Part shown: piece after piece, positions 33,510 through 47,643 of the stretch | Position numbering within the stretch: position 1 is the first letter of the stretch | Layout of the letters: each line of letters begins with the position of its first letter | DNA from: Pseudophaeomoniella oleicola | Lineage: Eukaryota > Ascomycota > Eurotiomycetes > Phaeomoniellales > Phaeomoniellaceae | Reading direction: 5' to 3' | Assembly: GCA_003868215.1 (NCBI GenBank) | Contig: QWDQ01000032.1 | Coordinates: forward strand, 186,001 to 250,000 | DNA: 64,000 bases | The notes under the pieces: generated by a model | Told to the model about the DNA's origin: nothing | The model's input: only the letters and a program-made list of their open reading frames with translations | Database searches by the model: none | Position numbers and translations under genes: made by a program

Positions 33510-35330
33510 ATGCGTCTTTTGAGTACGGAGAATCATGAACTCACAGATGTCTCCCCGGACAAGATCCCCGCCTATGCCATTCTGTCACATACATGGGGCG
33601 ACGAAGAAGTCGATTTTGCAAGGCTCCAGTCCGGAAACTGGGTTGAGGAGACTGAGGGTATGAGAAAAATTCGCAATGGATGTAGAAAAGCGAAGCAAGA
33701 TGGCTACGATTATCTCTGGGTTGACACATGTTGCATTGACAAACGGAATAGCGCCGAATTATCTGAAGCCATAAACTCGATGTACGATTGGTATCGCCTT
33801 GCGGATGTCTGCTACGCATACCTGGCTGACGTCGACACCCCAGTCGAATCAGAATCCGTCCCCCATTCATTTCGAGAGAGCAGATGGTTTACGCGGGGTT
33901 GGACCTTGCAAGAACTGATTGCGCCTACAAAATTGGAATTCTTTGGCAACAGAATTGGATCAAAAGACTGGCACCCGCTTGGAACGAAAATCAAGCTGTC
34001 GAAGACCATATCCGAGGTGACTTCGATCGACGAAGATATTCTGACGAAGAAGAAACTTCTGGGTGACATCAGCATCGCCCAGAGAATGTCCTGGGCAGCT
34101 CATAGAAACACAAGCAGACTGGAAGATAGAGCATATTGTCTGATGGGCATCTTCTCAGTCAATATGCCAATGATATACGGAGAAGGAGAAAGGGCTTTTA
34201 TCCGACTCCAGGAGGAAATCATGCGTTATTCGGATGACGAGTCTCTTTTTGCGTGGACGTCATCAACGATATCGAAACCATCCCCTGAAAGCGTGGTCTC
34301 TTCAGGGTTCTTGGCAAGTTCACCAGCCGCATTTGCTCGCTCTAGCCAGATCGTACCATACTCACGCTGGGAGGCGAGAACGCCGTACAACATGACTAAC
34401 AGAGGACTCAGCATCGACTTACCGCTCTTCTTTCTCGAAGGAAAGAACATGTACTTGGCTGCGCTCGACTGCCCTGCACTGGGTCGCTTCGGCGAGTATG
34501 TCGCAGTCGCGGTCAGACGCTTAGCGGGATTTGGAAATCAATATGTACGCATCGAGCCGGAGAAATTATTTTTGGTTCCTCATCGTGAGAACATCCAAAC
34601 GATTTACGTACCGCAAGGGCATTTGTCGTCGCGGGTTCATGAAGTGTACCCGCACCATTACTGCCAACTGTACAGAGGGCCGCCTGCGGAAAATGGATAT
34701 CGACTGCTAAAAGTCCTTGAACATCCGAGATCCTCCGTCAAGATTGCCTTCGACGTTTCATCCCTTCGACCATCATGGATACCTGGGACACAGCCGTTCA
34801 CGTTCGAGTTGGCAAAAGGTGTAGTTCAAGTAGCATGTCTTTTAGTCTTTGAGGAGACACAAACGGGAAGAAGATTGGTCGTTGCGGCAGCCTCGACCGT
34901 AGATTTTGGCCTCACCTTCGATGTATTCGATGCCGATTCCTCCGAGCTGCCACTATACCGATTGAAAAGGTTGTTAGAGGGCGACTATGCTGAATCCGCA
35001 GAGAAAGCATACATGTCCACTCTGGAGGAACTGAAGGATATCTATCAACCTCAAGCATCAGGCACAAGAGTGGAGCTCGAAGATCACGGCTATGTATGTG
35101 TCAATATTCAAGTACACACCAAAGGATCTTCGAAATATTTCATCGTGAATATCGATATAGGACCTGCACCGAGACCATCGATCCTCGAAGCTTTGCTTGG
35201 GTATCCTTCAGACCCTACTGATGAAGCAGCGACATTGCTACAAGAAGAAAGCCCGAAATCTGCAGGGTTCAAACTTTGGCCGCGATCCAGAAAGAAGGCG
35301 TCCAAAGGCCCCGTCACAGAGCCACGGTAA
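33510..35330 (+). CDS. HET-domain protein (heterokaryon-incompatibility type)
   Basis: Fungal allorecognition and cell-death type protein. A single exon encodes 606 residues. The HET domain covers residues about 1-250 and shows all its usual blocks: YAILSHTWGDEEVDF, YDYLWVDTCCIDK, WFTRGWTLQELIAP and AYCLMGIFSVNMPMIYGEGE. This is the HET-E/HET-D (HNWD-like) subtype in which the domain starts at the very N-terminus (MRLLSTENHEL). No NACHT, WD40 or ankyrin part follows; the C-terminal 350 residues are a beta-rich region of unknown function with a basic end. It borders the triterpenoid cluster on its left side. HET genes are highly variable in fungi, so it marks the edge of the accessory region. 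Confidence 0.93.
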   Translation: MRLLSTENHELTDVSPDKIPAYAILSHTWGDEEVDFARLQSGNWVEETEGMRKIRNGCRKAKQDGYDYLWVDTCCIDKRNSAELSEAINSMYDWYRLADVCYAYLADVDTPVESESVPHSFRESRWFTRGWTLQELIAPTKLEFFGNRIGSKDWHPLGTKIKLSKTISEVTSIDEDILTKKKLLGDISIAQRMSWAAHRNTSRLEDRAYCLMGIFSVNMPMIYGEGERAFIRLQEEIMRYSDDESLFAWTSSTISKPSPESVVSSGFLASSPAAFARSSQIVPYSRWEARTPYNMTNRGLSIDLPLFFLEGKNMYLAALDCPALGRFGEYVAVAVRRLAGFGNQYVRIEPEKLFLVPHRENIQTIYVPQGHLSSRVHEVYPHHYCQLYRGPPAENGYRLLKVLEHPRSSVKIAFDVSSLRPSWIPGTQPFTFELAKGVVQVACLLVFEETQTGRRLVVAAASTVDFGLTFDVFDADSSELPLYRLKRLLEGDYAESAEKAYMSTLEELKDIYQPQASGTRVELEDHGYVCVNIQVHTKGSSKYFIVNIDIGPAPRPSILEALLGYPSDPTDEAATLLQEESPKSAGFKLWPRSRKKASKGPVTEPR

Positions 35331-36109: not shown

Positions 36110-37941
36110 ATGGCTGTCGAAGTCGTACTGAACAGGACTTATGTAGAGAAGGTCATCTTTATAGCTATCTTGCATCCCTTCCTCTCTACCTTGGTCGTCA
36201 GCTTTCTCATCTGCATCTCTTACCGCTGCTGGAATGGGCTCAGGTATTCGAGGCAGCAAGCACAAGATGTGCCGAAAGAGCCTTCGATGTTACCCCACTG
36301 GGTTCCATACATCGGACATGCCTTTTCTTTCATTGCCGACAATAAGACATTCCTAGCCAATGCGAGGCAAGTCCCCCGGGGTGGTCCTTGGAAGGGGGTT
36401 TCAATATGCTTTTAGCTGACATCTCGGAAAGAGACAAGTCGGTAGACAGTATCTTCGCTATCAGACTGGCCGGCCATAAGCATTATATGGCTCTCACACC
36501 ATCTATCGTCAAACAGGTCTTCGCACAGCGTCCCACGGTACTGACCAATCGTCCTCTAGTCAATTGGCTGGCCAAGAACGGGTTTGGCGACAAAGGTACC
36601 ACGGCGAAAGTGCCGGAACTGTACGACGAGATCTCCTCTAATCTTCATGTCTTGATGACCGAGGCCGCCATCATGGACGCATCCAATCGAACTGCCAAAG
36701 TTGTAGGCAGGACCATCTTCTCTTTGACTACATTCAAGGACGATCCCTTGAGCCAACGATGTTGGGAGCACGGCGCCGATATTAATGTCCTCGCTGACGA
36801 GAAGGAACCTGAAGCGGAGGTCGAGGCAGAGTTCTTTCATCTCATGACTCGTTGGGCATACTCTTGTTCCACACCAGCTGTTTTTGGCCAAGCATTACTG
36901 GACCAGTGCCCACACATGATGGATGACGTCTTTGAGTTTGACGAGCAGTTTCCTATGCTGATCACAGGCCTGCCAGCGTTGACCCGTAAAATGTCTCGTG
37001 CAAGAGCCGCTGTTACCCGTTCCTCAGATGGAATTGAAGCTTGGTACAGAGCGTTCCGAGCCGTTGAAGATGGTAGGGATCCTGGTCCTGGTTGGGGCAA
37101 CATGGAGGATGTAAGCGAATTGGCCAAAATGCAACATCGGACATGGAGAAAGGGAGGAAAGGATGCGGAAAAAGCGGCTTTTGCCAATCTCCTTGGCCTT
37201 TTCTGGGGTCTTCACACGGTTCGTACAGGTCCAGCCTGGTCGCATTACCGCTAACATTGGAAGTAGAACTCAAATCTTGTCTTCTTCTGGTTCTTGACTC
37301 ATATATATGGGTCAGACTCACTCCTCGCGTCCATCCGTTCTGAAGTGGCACCGTTTGTTACCCGGCTTCCCAGCGGAGAATACTCTTTTGATCACACATC
37401 ACTTTCCCGGCTTTGTCCACTGCTGAAGTCCACATGGCTTGAGACGATGCGTCAAGACGTTATCGGTGCCGAACAAAAGTACATCCTTCAGGACTTCATG
37501 GTCACGGAATCTCCGCAGGACGCTACCTTGCTCCGTGGGAAGGGATCCACACCTCGCTCGTATGTTCTGAAAGCCGGTAACGTCATCTGCGTCCACAACG
37601 GGGCCACTCAAAACGATCCGAGACTATGGAAGGATCCCCTTCACTTCAACCCTGAGCGATTTTTAGTCGAGGATGAAAAGAAAGGCGTCAGAGCAGAGTG
37701 GCCAAGGCACCTATATAGCTTCGGAGGGGGTTACAGCATGTGTAAAGGAAGACTCTTTGCAGAACGAGAGGTTTTGACTTTTGTGGCGGCCGTAGTGACT
37801 CTTTGGGATATTGAGTACATGGGACCAAAGAACGCGGATGGAACTTGGGCTATAAAGAAAGGGTTGGAAGCTGGAGCGCCTTATCCAGCGCAAGACGTGA
37901 GGGTGAGAATCAAGAGAAGACAGGCTGGAGAACCACAATAG
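36110..37941 (+). CDS. Cytochrome P450, cluster P450-1 (CYP7/CYP8-like I-helix)
   Basis: Haem monooxygenase anchored in the ER, probably oxidising the triterpenoid scaffold. Three exons: 36110-36366, 36432-37218 and 37267-37941, encoding 572 residues. Intron 1 is GC-AG: a GCAAGT donor after NAR, branch CTGAC, joining FLANAR to DKSVDSIFAIRL. Intron 2 is GT-AG with a CTAAC branch and joins GLHT to NSNLVFFW. An N-terminal membrane helix (about residues 15-40) precedes the proline-rich hinge. The K-helix ExxR is ETMR. The haem loop is FGGGYSMCKGR, with the Cys ligand. The I-helix reads GLHTNSN instead of (A/G)Gx(D/E)TT, a trait of CYP7/CYP8-type P450s. It lies tail-to-tail with P450-2. The substrate is inferred from the cluster only. 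Confidence 0.9.
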
Positions 37942-38393: not shown

Positions 38394-40346
38394 TCAGGTT
38401 CGGATCCGTCGAATTCGAAACGGTATCGCTCGATCGGGCGGCATGGTGCCAAAGCCAAAACAGCTCATGTTGACTTCTGGCTTCTGACCTCCAGAGGTCA
38501 ATTGTATATCATAGGCAGTGAGTAACATTGCAGTGGTGAGTATGATCTCTCTTTTGGCGAAGTGACGACCGGGGCAGAGACTTCGTCCACCGCCGTAGGG
38601 AATCCACGAAGCCGATAAGCCGTCCATGGAAAAGAAAGGGTTTCCCGGTTCGGGCGGCTCTTCAATTTGCTTCGCATTGAAGTTTGGCCTACACTTCTTC
38701 GTTTCTCGAGCCTTCCTTGGTCCGCTGTTGGGCGCCGCGGGATCTACAATGAACCGTTCGGCCCAGAAGGAATTGAGCGGGTGTGGGTCTCCTGGTCCAC
38801 CGGTGTTCCAAATCTGCTTGTTCATTGCTTCTGTCCGAGTAGAGATACTGAGAGCCTCGTTCTTCTTGATGTGCCAGCCACGAAAAGAGTAGTTGTCTTT
38901 AGCTGGTTCGCGGACGACCAAGACTGCGACACGGAGACGGAGGGTTTCCGCATACATTGATTGAAGCAAAGGCTCCGAGCACAATTTGACATGGTCAAAC
39001 GTTCGGAGCTGGAATGGGTTCTTCCAGCTCCCATACTTTCGTTCTGGGCTTGGGTTCAGTGAAGCAGGAAGTAACTGGCTTACAGAGGCCCTCAGCGACG
39101 GGTCGTGTAGGGTCTCAAGCAGGAACCATATGGCTGCTGGGGCGGAATTCGAGTTAGTGCTATGAAATTATCAGCACGCCACCCAGCGATTCTGATTGGG
39201 AACTTACGCCCACATGAACGCAAAGTTCTCCGATGCTCTCGCTGTCTCGTCCATGATACCCCGCTTGGTAAGTAACACTTGCCTCTCTCGGATGAATTTA
39301 CTCCCATAGTAAGGCTCCCAATCGACATCACCAACATCCTCGATCCTACAGCGCTCGGTGACGTACGTCTGCCAGCGTTTGATATTCGCTATCATCCGTT
39401 CACGCTTCTTGATGGCGCTCGACGTCATCCACTTGGGGAGACCCATGAACAATGCTCCAATCGAACGATTGAAATCCCAAAAGTCATCCGCGAGTGTCGG
39501 ATTCAACGAAAGCATGAAGTCTCCGAACATTGAACGCATTGCCGCTTCGAACACGTGCTTTTCTACAAACGTGCTGAGATCGGGATACTTGACCCAAGCT
39601 CCTCCAATATGGATTGCCTCTTCGATATGCCGGATGAGAAACTCTTGATATCGACCCGTGAGACCGTCCAGATGCGCGCCGGAGAGACCAGTATTCACCG
39701 CCCTATGGATGAGGACTTCGATGTTATCCTCTGAATCAGCTGGATTAGTTGTTACTGTTTGCGGCTTAAACGAATCAACCAGATGGTGCGGACAACCAAA
39801 GGCAGTCTCCATGATCGTGACGCTGCGGGATGTCGTCGACAGATCCCGAGACTCCTTGAAGTACGCCGCCACATTCTCCGGCCCTGACACGACATAATTC
39901 GAAAATATCGGCAGAATAGTCCGAATCGGCACCGTTCGTCCAAGATATGTACTGGAATCTCCTTATACGTTAGACCAAAAGCCCCCCAAAGCTTTCTCCT
40001 TTCCTTCTCGATTCTGATATTCTCCGGTGGGGGAAAAGGGGAGGGGGAGAACACATCGGGGCTTGACGAATACTCACGCAGCATCCTCCATCAAACACTG
40101 CCCATCCCACAAAAACCCAAACAAGTGCCCAACATACGGCACCGCGTACGGTAAGGTCGGGGGACGCTTGAGACCCGCCGGCGTCGTTGACGCCACTGCG
40201 ATTGCTCGCCGAGCACTCCACGACGTGATCAACCATGTCAAGACGAAGGGAGCGGTGAGGGCGAGGGTGAAGAACAATATGCGCTTTGGATCCCCCCATA
40301 GTATCGTCGTCGTCGACGGCGCTTCTTGTACATTGTTGGTGTCCAT
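38394..40346 (-). CDS. Cytochrome P450, cluster P450-2 (CYP7/CYP8-like I-helix)
   Basis: Second haem monooxygenase of the cluster. Three exons on the minus strand: 40346-40078, 39951-39208 and 39159-38394, encoding 592 residues; all introns are GT-AG and keep frame (DAATYLGRTVPIR and FAFMWATNSNSAPAAIWFLL at the joins). A membrane anchor lies at residues about 22-42 (ILFFTLALTAPFVLTWLI), followed by LPYAVPYVGHLFGF. The K-helix ExxR is ETLR. The haem loop is YGGGRSLCPGRHFAKRE, with Tyr in place of the usual first Phe. The I-helix ATNSN shares the NSN block with P450-1, so the two may be distant paralogues within one P450 class. A (TA)n tract lies 14 bp upstream of the start codon. The product is unknown. 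Confidence 0.9.
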
Positions 40347-41214: not shown

Positions 41215-42631
41215 TTAATACCTTGTACACAAATCGAGTAGACTGAAAGGTAAAATCCGACCTCCTCCCTTATCTCTTTGCATCATTGGATAGGTCCATA
41301 CGGGAGTTGCCCATACCATCCACGCTATCACCCACAGATATCCAACAGTTCTGTCGATCATCCAACGTGGTAATGGGCCCAACGATTTGCTTCCTGGCCC
41401 CACCGGTCCGTGAGATCGAGAGTAATACAACGATTGCAGGGTATCCTCGAGCATGATGCCAGCGGTCTGCATGCAGAAGAAGCGCATGGCGCCGCTTTCC
41501 CGAAAGGGTATGTCTTGCGTCATGTCGGACAGGGTGTGGAAGACTCCTGAGACGGCGAATGTGCAGAAGATGAACATGTATCTGCCCACGATGCCACCCT
41601 TCTTTAGCCGTAGGGAGGAATATGTGGTGAAGTAGGCGATACTACTGCAACCGCGTCGGATAAGCTGATGATAGAAACAACTACTCACAGCATTAGCGTG
41701 GGATAGAGTAGTAAACCGTTAGTAAAGGATCGTCTCACCCCCAAAACTGACGGAGCGAGTAAGACTCGTCGATATATCCAAAGACGGGAGGCCACGACTT
41801 GACCGCCGAGATTCCTAGCGCGACTGCCACGATTGCCAGAGTATCATACACAGCTTCGATTATGATGTATTGGACACACCAATAGGCGCAGATGCTGAGG
41901 ATCCTTGCAACCAGCTCTTCTCCCGAAACGCTGAATAGCCGAGATAGAAACGGAATTCTGTGAGAAGCAAATACGGTAGCATTGTCTCCGGTGTTGCTGA
42001 AGAGTCCGACAAGGTCAAGCACAAGGATGCAGATCATCCATCTGACGACCGACTCGCGTAAGAATTGAGTCTTCCCCGGCACATGAGCCGGGTTGCTCCG
42101 AGAGAAAGGCGGGATGTTCTTGACAGGCCAATTCGTTGCACAGAAACGACTTTGGAGGCTGACCTCTAGACCGAATCGAAATCTGTCTAAGATGCTGACC
42201 AGTGGTGGACGGACTCCCGAGTTAGCTTCCTTCATTGCCGCACCATCGACCGGCTTCAGTCCAGCGACTGAAGAAGTTGGGCCTTTGGCCTCGAACGTCC
42301 ATTTGTGCAAGAGCACAGTGTCGATGAAGAGTACATTCAGGTAAACCCCTGCAGCACCTAGAAAAGCCCTATGAATGGGATTCTCAATAGGTCGTACGTT
42401 GGGTAGCTGTAGGTATGTACATAGGATCATACCGGGGAGTATAGCCGGCCGGAGGACAGATGTGCCTGAAGTGAAACCCAACACCACAGCCATGCTGATA
42501 ATCTGGACGCCGACAAGACATGTGGCAGTGAGCGCTGACATTCTGGCGGATAATGGAGACCTATGATCGAACGGATCTGCTGTAAAGGCGCTGGTAGCAG
42601 TAAATAGACACTGTACCCAAGATATGCCCAT
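41215..42631 (-). CDS. Membrane-bound O-acyltransferase, wax-synthase/MBOAT_2 type (probable triterpenoid acetyltransferase)
   Basis: Multi-span acyl-CoA-dependent O-acyltransferase of the type found in many fungal terpenoid clusters. Two exons on the minus strand: 42631-41739 and 41680-41215, encoding 452 residues. The splice (GTGAGA donor, CTAAT branch, GAGTAG acceptor) joins SLRQFWG to CFYHQLIRRG, which restores the family block in which FW is followed by a conserved HQ and Arg pair; the catalytic His is expected further on, in FAVSGVFHTLSD. About eight hydrophobic segments are visible. Acetylation of a scaffold hydroxyl is the likely role, as enfumafungin carries an acetoxy group. It lies between P450-2 and the cyclase fusion, all on the minus strand. 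Acyl-donor identity is inferred. Confidence 0.85.
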
Positions 42632-43752: not shown

Positions 43753-46700
43753 CTACGCTCTCGTAACGCCGTTCTTGAATTTCCTGTGGAAGGCAGCTGC
43801 ACTCAGAACCTGCCAATTACTGATGACTTGATCCCCGATTGGTTCGTTGGCATCAGACTCGGTGATAGCGCGCTTGACAAATTGCATGTCATGTTCCGCC
43901 TGCTTGATTCTCGATTGGTACACGGGATCTCGAGCTTTGATCACCAAGTCATCATCTCGATCGACTCTCGTTCCACCTATAGAGACCACCCAACTCAATA
44001 TAGCATGCACGAGCCGGAAAAGTCTGTAAAGTAGATCCGTGAGCTTGGCCAGGGATGCAATAATGTCGTTTGACTTTCCATTCAGCCGATCAGCCCAGTC
44101 CAAACCGCATTCAGGCTCCAGGTCAATCCAGTTGAGGACGTCATTCGTTACCAGGTATGCAGCGGCGACGCCTGAGAGTAGGAGACCAGAATCGACGTGT
44201 CGCCATCGAGCTTTAAGACCAGTGACGATGGTGCATGGAGGCTGGGTGTCTGGCGCGATTTGCAACCCAGCGATCTTTCCTGCAGCGATTTCCGCTCCGT
44301 CTTTCTCAGACTTGATTACAGCAGCCATGGCGGCGCAACGAGCTCGGTATTTTGAAGACAGTAAATCTTGCAGAGACGCTGCTAAACCACCAGTGGTGAG
44401 TTTTTGGTGGGCGATTGGTGCTGGCCCAAGCTCAAGCCGTCCAACATTGGCAGCCCACAGGTTTTGATCCAGGAAGAACGGGATGATCAACATCGGTACG
44501 CCTGCCCTCAGCCCGGCGGCAGTATGACCGGCGCCACCATGGTGAACAAAGCCTTGGACTCGTGAAAGAAGCCAATCGTGAGGAACTTCCTCTACGATGC
44601 AAACTTTGTCGGGAATTGTGACCGTACTGCTGATATTCTGTCCATTCAAGCAGACCACAGCTTTTGCGCCAATTCGCTCGATGGCAGAAAATACCGTTGT
44701 CATTAATTCCGTTGGGTTCGCAATACTTGCCGAGCCGAATCCAATGGCAAGCGTAGGTTCGTCGGTATCTAGGAAGCTCTCCAATTCCCTGGGTGGTACG
44801 TAACCCTTCTCGTGCTGGTGAGTGTATCCTGCAATGATCACCTCCTCATTCCATTCGCGAGGTCGTGGAATCAGGTTAGGTGACCATAAACAAAGGTGAG
44901 GGATCCTCATGCTCGGGAACTCAAACGCAGCCCAGGCCCAAGATGCAGGTTTTAGGCGATAGACTGAAACACGAAGATAATTGAGGTACGGTCCGAATGC
45001 CAGCCAATTTCTATGTATCGTGTCAGTATTCAGTATAGAGCGAGAAACATAGACCAGTGAATTTCCTCACAGTAAATCTAGACATAAGTATGATATGTAG
45101 TTCCACCAGTGGTTCGGGGAAAACGTCGGCTTCGTCATAGTGAAAACCTGCGGGAAGGAGGACGTTGGCAGGAGGGGTTGGACAGATACAAGCACGAGGG
45201 GGACTCCAAGTTTCTCCGCGCAATGGATATGGGTAAGAGTCGGAAGGCTTGAAACAATGGTATCGGCAATGAAAGGGCGTGGTGGTCGTTTTCCATCCTT
45301 CTCCGACCTCGCCGGGTTGTCATAACTCGACTGCCAAAAGCTTGCAATCATGACATGGAACATACGCCACAAAGCAACAAAATCTCCCTTTATAGTGGAG
45401 AGCAGAATATTGGGCTTTTTGGTGAAGGCTTCTGAGAATTCCGCCGGATCACCATTGACGGAGTAAAATTCAATGCCTTGGTCTTCAACAAGCTTCCGGT
45501 GCACAGGATGTGTAGCAATCCTGACGCGATATCTGTAAGCATTGGCCAATATTTTGGCAACGTTCAAGAATACTTGAATGTCCCCACGACTTCCGACCAC
45601 CATGAAGAGGATGCTGGGGCGATTCAGCACTCTTGAAACTTGGAGAGGGACTGTGATAGGCTGCAACCTGTTTTGCTCGTCTCCGTCCAGGTACTTCGCC
45701 AAGGCCACGATTGCGAAATAATGGTGATAGTACGGATATCCCAGATAAAGTACTTTTGGGAAACCGGTTGCAGTGTACATGTTGGAATCCCAGGACATGC
45801 CGTGTTCTGACGCAACATTTTGATGATGAACAAGCCACCGTATACCTCTCTCGACCGCGGGGTACGACCGAGGACGGTATGGCTGTAAGGAAAGAAGAGC
45901 CCAGGAGGTTTGTGCAGCTGTGCTGTTACCTTGGCCTGCCAACTCCGGGTAATCGTATGTTTTCAAATGCTCGCCCCATCCTCCATCGGCATTTTGACAA
46001 GACTCGAACCATTCCGTGGCCCGTTCAACACAGGCTCTGACGTCCGCGCTCGTATGAGCGAAATGGACCAAGCCACGGAGGACATTGCTGGTTCCATAGA
46101 TGTAGTTGTTACCCCATCGACCCCACCAACCACCGCAGGCTTCTTGCTCTTCCAGGATATATCTTATCCCACGTTCCGAGGACGTCTTGACTTGCTGTTG
46201 CAGCTTTGGATCCCAAGACCCTTTCCTATGGGACAACATGAAGCCCCAGCACTCTAGGACCCGGCCAGTGATGTCTGCGGAGCTCGGATCACAAAGGCTG
46301 TCCATGTCACTGAAAGGTATCTTGTGCAGCCATAGCTGGTTGTTTTCATGATCAAACGCACCCCATCCTCCATCGGAATTCTGCATGCCGAGGATCCACT
46401 GAACGGCCATTGAGATGCATTCAGACCCGATCAAAGGCGGATCATGTTTCACCAGGGCCATTATGACCACAGCGGTATCGTCCACATCAGGGTAAAACGT
46501 GTTGTGGTACTCAAAGCTCCAACCGCCAGCTGAATTGGGCCCGTATATGCGCCAATCGCCATATTCGCTTAGAATTTGACGGCTCTTGACCCAGTCAACC
46601 GACTTTTGAACGCGAGGGTCTCCAGAGACACTTGCGTCGCACAAAGCACTCAGCATCAATGCTGTGTCCCAAACGGGAGAGACGGTCGCTGCGATGCGCT

Positions 46701-47643
46701 TTCCCTCGACATTCTCGAATGCTAGGCGTTCCAAGGCCTCTAGACCAAGACGTACGGCTTTGTGATCAAGAGGAAATCCCTCCAAGATCAGAGCCCAGAT
46801 ACTACCATGCATTGGAGGGAAGAAGCCAGCCCATTCGCCGGTTTTCTCTTGGTGCTCCAAGAGCCAATCGATGCATGCTTTTCGTGAGCGGGTACGCAAA
46901 GGGAAGTGTTTGAGACCGCCTAACGACCCGAGGAACTTTTCAATGGCGGTGAAAGCGAATCCGATGAAGTCCTGTTCCCATAGTTGTTTTGATAAAGGAG
47001 GTGCGAAAGGCACATTCTTATTGTTGGGTGCACACCACAACTCATCAAGGAAATCGTTGTCAGAGCTCTGGCCATTCGGCAGAGCATACACGGGTTCGTG
47101 ATGGCGGACAATGAGAATAGGAATCAAGGTACTGCGTGCCCACGAACAAAGTGTGTAGATATTGAGAGGAGCAGATGGTGGCATCAGTATCAATTCGGCT
47201 GGCATTTGAGGGATAGCGGTCCAAGGAAATAGCCCGAAGGTTGCCAGGAAAAACCTCGTGAAGAATCGGACTTTAACCACACCTCCATTCTTTACCATGA
47301 AATCTCTGGTCCTGAACATATTTGGCTCATCTGGTGAAACGCCGAGTATCTTTAAGGCTAGGTATGCCTCTACCGTCGTCGAAACGTTGCCCGGTAGTGT
47401 GGGTGCGAGAGCCCATGATCCATCGTCTTTCTGTGTATGTAAGAGCCAACGTCTCAACGCAGCTCCATCGCTTTTCAAATCAAACCCCATGGCATACTTG
47501 AACATGACATACTCCGAAGTAAACGATACATCAGCAGAAACCTCAGCGACCCAGTGGCCATCGGGCTTTTGATGATCAAAGGAAAAGGCGATGGATTTTT
47601 GAAGAGCCTCACGGGCATCGGCTTGGAGCCCTCCATCGCTCAT
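43753..47643 (-). CDS. efuA-like: Squalene-hopene-type triterpene cyclase fused to a UDP-glycosyltransferase (enfumafungin-synthase type)
   Basis: Core enzyme of the cluster. Two exons on the minus strand: 47643-45071 and 45010-43753 (GTGAGG donor, ACATAG acceptor; join DLLNWLAFGPYL), encoding 1276 residues. Residues 1 to about 655 are a class II cyclase of the squalene-hopene type: QKPDGHW at the N-terminus, the general-acid motif DVDDTA at residues 386-391, and QW motifs QNSDGGW, QEACGGW and QNADGGW. After a linker of about 20 residues a GT1-like domain begins with ILFMVVGSRGDIQ (about 678) and carries the sugar-nucleotide motif HHGGAGHTAAGLRAGVP near residue 1014, as in sterol 3-glucosyltransferases. 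A tail of about 150 residues has hydrophobic stretches. The cyclase-GT fusion is the known hallmark of enfumafungin synthase and relatives. Cyclisation of squalene (lower likelihood: oxidosqualene) followed by O-glucosylation is inferred. Confidence 0.93.

Follow-up and report, generated by a model that had tools for sequence, protein, structure and literature searches.

The window, by which is meant the whole 64,000-nucleotide stretch of Pseudophaeomoniella oleicola DNA that was analysed, encodes a squalene-hopene cyclase (SHC)-type cyclase followed by a sterol glycosyltransferase (GT)-like domain in a single polypeptide. This cyclase-glycosyltransferase fusion (TC-GT) is probably a functional member of the enfumafungin/fuscoatroside synthase family and the core of a cluster at ~36.1-51.9 kb that would direct a pathway to a fernane-type 3-O-glucoside. 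The gene may be considered in terms of two exons and one short intron:

47643..43753, minus strand: TC-GT fusion gene, whole, with its ATG at 47643 and its stop ending at 43753
45071..47643, minus strand: exon 1, with the complete SHC-type cyclase domain, a linker and the N-terminal part of the GT
45011..45070, minus strand: GT-AG intron of 60 nt, donor GTGAGG...ATACATAG, with CTGAC 5' of the acceptor
43753..45010, minus strand: exon 2, with the GT half bearing HHGG and a C-terminal tail that includes a hydrophobic stretch

A preliminary description had proposed a single gene here, with both domains and one intron at 45011-45070, and this reading held: the coding sequence is open and Pfam families cover both halves. 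The strand, absent from that description, is minus. Once spliced, the coding sequence is 3831 nt long and translates to 1276 aa with no internal stops. An identical pair of exons was returned by a splice-scoring script whose codon table was partly trained on exon 1, giving partial independence only. The N-terminal part of the GT lies in an unbroken frame with the cyclase inside exon 1, and the intron falls within the GT domain.

The cyclase half matches SQHop_cyclase_N (residues 16-311, E = 2.3e-98) and SQHop_cyclase_C (321-652, E = 2.1e-108), and the GT half matches Glyco_transf_28 (678-748, E = 2.4e-8), UDPGT (931-1081, E = 2.5e-8) and EryCIII-like_C (964-1101, E = 5.3e-17); the matches of both domains are far beyond chance. 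The motifs of both active sites, DVDDTA at residue 386, GSRGD at 684 and HHGG at 1014, are all present and intact as first described, and the acid motif (DVDD, residue 386) is the DXDD of the SHC class. The assignment to squalene-hopene-type cyclases also stands; for the QW motifs, a loose pattern gives seven matches (25, 71, 265, 356, 421, 500 and 550) instead of the three first described. The exon-1 protein matches the Alicyclobacillus squalene-hopene cyclase with an E value of 2.1e-121, and the top PDB sequence match of the GT part is the yeast sterol 3-beta-glucosyltransferase UGT51 (E = 6.8e-37). An AlphaFold model of residues 1-856 of the 1276 (mean pLDDT = 85.1) matched the SHC structures 1sqc and 3sqc with a target-normalised TM of 0.89, and matched UGT51 (5gl5) weakly (E = 3.5e-4). 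Through the hydrophobic stretch of its C-terminal tail, the protein may be attached to a membrane.

A search with the TC-GT protein identified 625 relatives, and the best 120 of these were analysed. Among those 120, the closest full-length protein has 63% identity and the closest partial ones 72% over 67%; many have a length of 850-880 aa, and neither EfuA nor FsoA appears by name. The shorter relatives were used to examine the intron. From the 60 that are under 1000 aa within rows P0018-P0085, 58 align as far as the exon 1 boundary; in 51/58 the protein ends within 0-40 residues of the splice junction of the window's gene. Such endings are expected of models that read into the intron, and thus its position is conserved. 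The exceptions are five Xylaria rows (P0069, P0070, P0071, P0072 and P0084) that extend past the junction by 76-119 residues, and two rows (P0034 and P0075) that end just short of it.

When compared with 20 full-length fusions, the window's protein keeps 171/174 of their invariant residues in the cyclase and 50/50 in the GT (221/224 together), as well as 7/8 in the C-terminal tail. This retention tells against a decaying or silent copy with an open frame and a disused pathway, a reading that is quite improbable even though six Xylaria relatives, unless their gene models are faulty, seem to have lost the GT core while retaining the cyclase. That none of the six cluster gene models contains a stop agrees with a maintained pathway, as a weak test given that the models were built to be open.

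Trees of the two halves were calculated separately, from rows that do not include EfuA or FsoA. The cyclase tree (FastTree, 122 cyclase regions, no bootstrap) was rooted on the Alicyclobacillus enzyme, whose branch is very long, and rows P0116, P0065, P0112, P0044 and P0115 were flagged as long. It places the window in a clade of 88 rows with a local support of 99, and 33 standalone fungal SHCs fall outside. Fusions could be scored in 68/88 of the clade, 22 as full-length proteins with HHGG (the window included) and 46 by G[ST]RGD; BLASTP found a GT piece in 18 of the remaining 20 and none in P0081 and P0088, so that 86/88 have one. Set beside the continuous frame across the cyclase and the GT start in exon 1 and an intron inside the GT domain, a layout common to so many rows leaves it scarcely credible that two adjacent genes were wrongly joined by gene prediction. 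Such joining is a general risk; two relatives, P0068 and P0170, look like merged models.

The clade of 88 splits into subclades of 37 and 50 rows, with P0065 apart. The smaller includes Chaetomidium, Xylariaceae, Cytospora and Trapelia; the larger includes the window, Hypoxylon rubiginosum, Paramyrothecium, Diaporthe, Oculimacula, Endocarpon, Aspergillus ellipticus and Teloschistaceae. In the GT tree (IQ-TREE, 25 rows: 21 fusions, three GTs from the window's own genome and UGT51), all 21 fusions are united (100/100) away from the three own-genome GTs, standalone relatives at 37%, 36% and 30% identity, and from UGT51. With four standalone GTs for comparison, the GT half appears to derive from fungal sterol GTs, a descent common to the fusions. 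Both halves of the window's protein thus fall among fungal TC-GT fusions. The agreement of the two trees, together with the conserved intron, favours without proving it a single fusion event that was retained in distant fungi. A full-length tree of the 21 fusions, the only one of the three trees to resolve the window's nearest sister, identifies seven Teloschistaceae fusions as its sister group (96/95).

The active site of the cyclase was examined in Alicyclobacillus SHC numbering by comparing the 88 rows of the fusion clade with the 33 standalone fungal SHCs. D374, D376, D377 and D447 are retained in 88/88 of the clade. Four pocket positions separate the two groups: 605 (L in 77/88 versus F in 30/33), 307 (T in 82/88 versus C in 29/33), 363 (W in 87/88 versus F in 28/33) and 261 (F in 73/88 versus I in 32/33). 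At 455, the bacterial C is kept in 87/88 versus A in 32/33. The window's cyclase presents the fusion-type residue at each of these positions. While it shares its fold, the DXDD motif and most of the compared active-site aromatics with the Alicyclobacillus enzyme, it differs from it at 261, 262, 307, 363, 420, 451 and 605, and the bacterial SHC has no GT; the changes Y420F and H451R are common to the fusion clade and the standalone fungal SHCs. A search for literature on residue F605 of SHC found none. From the residues, it is reasonable to infer that the window's cyclase would have a ring outcome other than hopane. A second SHC was sought in the genome and rejected, as the sole other SQHop match (contig C47) reads VSDCTSE in place of DXDD and is lanosterol-synthase-like; VSDCTSE resembles the DCTAE-type motif of lanosterol synthase.

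It is unlikely, as an alternative, that the cyclase makes a non-fernane triterpenol (e.g. of the hopane type) which the GT glucosylates directly, with the P450s and the acetyltransferase acting on the glucoside. The cyclase is SHC-like in both fold and sequence, its product cannot be read from the sequence, and many fungal SHC-type enzymes are described as uncharacterised in the available text of PMC9476466; yet the pocket residues match the fusion clade and not the standalone SHCs. A second argument against a non-fernane product comes from the acetyltransferase of the cluster.

The cluster extends over ~36.1-51.9 kb, flanked by a HET-domain ORF and an aconitase-family gene. Three P450s, one MBOAT and the TC-GT lie within 14.5 kb. 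The genes that accompany the TC-GT are:

36110..37941, plus strand: cytochrome P450 'a', a gene model with exons 36110-36380, 36446-37218 and 37267-37941, its first intron tentative
38394..40346, minus strand: cytochrome P450 'b', a gene model with exons 40346-40078, 39951-39208 and 39159-38394, whose homologues adjoin the TC-GT in other fungi
41215..42541, minus strand: MBOAT_2 acetyltransferase of 422 aa (MBOAT_2, 1.7e-23), with exons 42541-41739 and 41680-41215
48837..50601, plus strand: cytochrome P450 'c', a gene model with exons 48837-49040, 49100-49813, 49862-50361 and 50424-50601
51406..51921, plus strand: small DUF4267 protein at the cluster edge, of uncertain membership in the cluster

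A P450 search of the genome (26.1 Mb in 112 contigs), in which counts are lower bounds, gave three matches in the window and these are the three modelled. From its tandem position with the MBOAT gene, P450b is a candidate for the C2 hydroxylase (the FsoD/EfuH2 role), and by elimination P450c is a candidate for the P450 that cleaves the E ring (the FsoE/EfuG role). The MBOAT aligns with FsoF (FSOF_HUMFU), the acetyltransferase of the fuscoatroside pathway, at 41% identity over 96%. FsoC is glucose-oxidase-like, and glucose oxidases are GMC enzymes. Within the 64-kb window, where the best candidates were read exon by exon, GMC_oxred_N gave no match that would indicate an FsoC-like oxidase, and a counterpart to the oxygenase EfuI, sought in the same manner in C39:186001-250000 through three 2OG-oxygenase Pfam families (PhyH, 2OG-FeII_Oxy and TauD; the family of EfuI itself may differ), likewise gave none. 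With neither type of enzyme evident in the window, enfumafungin itself is an unlikely product. A duplicated glucan synthase was also considered as a self-resistance gene; the genome has one match only, leaving a duplication of the target unsupported.

The chemistry expected of such a cluster can be drawn from the available text of PMC12667498. The cyclase domains of EfuA and FsoA convert 2,3-oxidosqualene to fernenol and isomotiol, respectively. FsoD hydroxylates C2 and FsoF then acetylates that hydroxyl, acting on 2-hydroxylated fernane aglycones; the GT domain adds glucose at the 3-OH once the intermediate is acetylated, but not when it is merely hydroxylated; and FsoE cleaves ring E after glucosylation. 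The enzymes of the two pathways are 55% (EfuH2/FsoD), 42% (EfuH1/FsoF) and 56% (EfuG/FsoE) identical (PMC12667498). An FsoF homologue in the window's cluster is the further point against a non-fernane triterpenol. That one polypeptide would both build the scaffold and add the sugar, as the preliminary description put it, is right in its gist, with the qualification that the two steps are not consecutive: 2-hydroxylation and 2-O-acetylation intervene in the published fusions (PMC12667498). The same source describes that without the P450, the unmodified alcohol is also glucosylated by FsoA, and slightly by an EfuA(TC)FsoA(GT) hybrid, which speaks against a strict step order. Native EfuA expressed in A. 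oryzae gave little fernenol and its glucoside went undetected, and the GT of FsoA was borrowed instead (PMC12667498).

By analogy, the cyclase half of the window's TC-GT would use its DXDD acid to cyclise 2,3-oxidosqualene, giving an alcohol of the fernane type (fernenol, isomotiol or an isomer). P450b would hydroxylate this alcohol at C2 and the MBOAT enzyme would acetylate the new hydroxyl; only after C2 acetylation would the fusion protein's own GT half glucosylate the 3-OH. P450c and/or P450a might then oxidise the skeleton further and possibly open ring E. The product would most likely be a 2-O-acetyl, 3-O-glucosyl fernane-type triterpene, and its class is likely that of the antifungal glucan-synthase inhibitors.

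The enfumafungin-synthase type of the fusion, proposed from the outset, fits with the architecture, the motifs, the trees of both halves and a P450/acetyltransferase cluster with an FsoF homologue. EfuA, the enfumafungin synthase of Hormonema carpetanum, as described in the literature (PMC9476466, PMC11371599, PMC12667498; available text), resembles the window's protein in having a cyclase N-terminal to a sterol-GT-like domain, a DXDD motif, and P450s and an acetyltransferase in its cluster. In contrast, the efu cluster has the Fe(II)/2OG oxygenase EfuI, which forms the C24-C25 hemiacetal, and the window has no match in the three 2OG families. The fso cluster of Humicola fuscoatra, which makes fuscoatroside, likewise has a TC-GT fusion, three P450s and one acetyltransferase; it differs by the glucose oxidase gene fsoC, whereas the GMC oxidoreductase search matched nothing in the window. 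FsoF is closer to an MBOAT of Chaetomidium leptoderma (66%) than to that of the window (41%), and the Chaetomidium TC-GT, apparently on the same contig as this MBOAT, sits in the cyclase subclade to which the window does not belong.

Hypoxylon rubiginosum has a putative fernane cluster with a TC-GT, two P450s and an acetyltransferase (PMC8403587, available text). A TC-GT of this fungus (P0040), placed in the same large subclade as the window, shows 64% identity to the window's protein over 67% of the latter. The cluster described differs in including an FAD monooxygenase and an O-methyltransferase (PMC8403587), neither of which is among the window's gene models. EfuA homologues, mostly without a GT, are noted in Lecanoromycetes and other classes, with more fusion proteins in unrelated fungi and not rare (PMC9476466, available text, citing Kuhnert et al. 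2018). With EfuA-type fusions and the H. rubiginosum cluster already published, the window's gene belongs to a known kind.

The closest full-length relatives among the best 120 of 625 are unannotated TC-GT fusions, 59-63% identical, from lichen fungi of the Teloschistaceae (cf. Caloplaca, Wetmoreana, Xanthoria and others). By locus tag, P450b and/or MBOAT homologues adjoin the TC-GT in Polycauliona, Wetmoreana and two cf. Caloplaca. In Polycauliona the tags run from Q9168_002631 (P450b) to 002632 (MBOAT) and 002633 (TC-GT); the trio also has consecutive tags in Wetmoreana (Q9181_001887, 001888 and 001889) and in Oculimacula (VTL71DRAFT_9169, 9168 and 9167). Judged by a proxy for shared contigs, 21/49 MBOAT relatives and 14/52 P450 relatives are apparently on the same contig as one of 85 TC rows, and 28/49 and 38/52 share none; locus tags are 1-3 apart from the TC-GT in 4 of the 21 and 7 of the 14, respectively. 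The P450 rows came from one joint search with all three P450s, and every row (52/52) is best matched to P450b, so that the survey covers P450b almost solely. A Paramyrothecium protein model contains homologues of both P450c (56% over 419 aa) and P450b (53% over 447 aa). From these comparisons, P450b, MBOAT and TC-GT recur as a group in lichen fungi and others. Fernanes are recorded from the lichen Lobaria (PMC11371599, available text), and the terms 'enfumafungin' and 'hopene' were not found in the available portions of the lichen papers PMC11457338 and PMC12136951.

The drug ibrexafungerp has its natural parent compound in enfumafungin (PMC12667498, available text). With its TC-GT, MBOAT, three P450s and DUF4267 protein, and no evident EfuI or FsoC type, the cluster could make a fernane-type glucoside that is as yet undescribed and acts as an inhibitor of beta-1,3-glucan synthase, and its core pathway could be an old trait, widely kept among ascomycetes including the lichen-forming Teloschistaceae and not peculiar to a few endophytes; this broader proposal is put forward tentatively, as a possibility that falls somewhat short of being probable. 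The added interest lies in the tailoring set and in the spread of the P450b/MBOAT/TC-GT trio in lichen fungi. As an intact cluster with different tailoring genes, it offers new cyclase and GT domains. If the fusion of two enzymes that work at separate points of the pathway arose once and was retained in distant fungi, as the trees and the intron suggest, the reason for its retention becomes testable.

The cluster of three modelled cytochrome P450s (P450a, P450b and P450c), an MBOAT protein and the triterpene cyclase-glucosyltransferase fusion (TC-GT) has the following features at its sides in the window:

33510-35330, + strand: HET-domain (heterokaryon incompatibility) ORF, immediately left of the cluster
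51406-51921, + strand: small DUF4267 protein, at the cluster edge

A full-text literature search for the term DUF4267 found no paper containing it.

Two gene models from cf. Caloplaca, P0174 and P0190, each contain a P450b homologue together with a second P450. Since this second P450 shares just 27–28% identity with P450c, these lichen clusters may have a second P450 unlike that of the window. Compounds of the enfumafungin type presumably act on 1,3-beta-glucan synthase. The fungus's own genome assembly has one match to this enzyme family (contig C13, positions 218328–220781), and a duplicate of the presumed target gene was not seen there.

When the cyclases are aligned, residue 44 of the window's protein falls at SHC position 45, which is occupied by Q in 45 and by E in 36 of the 88 fusion-clade rows. 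Q is found in 28 of the 37 rows of the Chaetomidium-side subclade and E in 29 of the 50 rows of the window's subclade. The Q/E state is possibly connected with product type.

Among the best 120 of 625 related proteins listed, the Aspergillus coremiiformis model P0108 (1141 aa) joins an SHC to a PF02458 transferase domain. It is possibly a different kind of cyclase-acyltransferase fusion, or a merger of two genes.

For six Xylaria proteins (P0069, P0070, P0071, P0072, P0079 and P0084), the BLASTP pieces span the amino terminus and the tail of the GT half and miss its middle, where the HHGG motif is located. The gap would reflect either a lineage-specific GT loss or faulty gene models. If the loss is real, the GT half is able to decay while the cyclase is retained.
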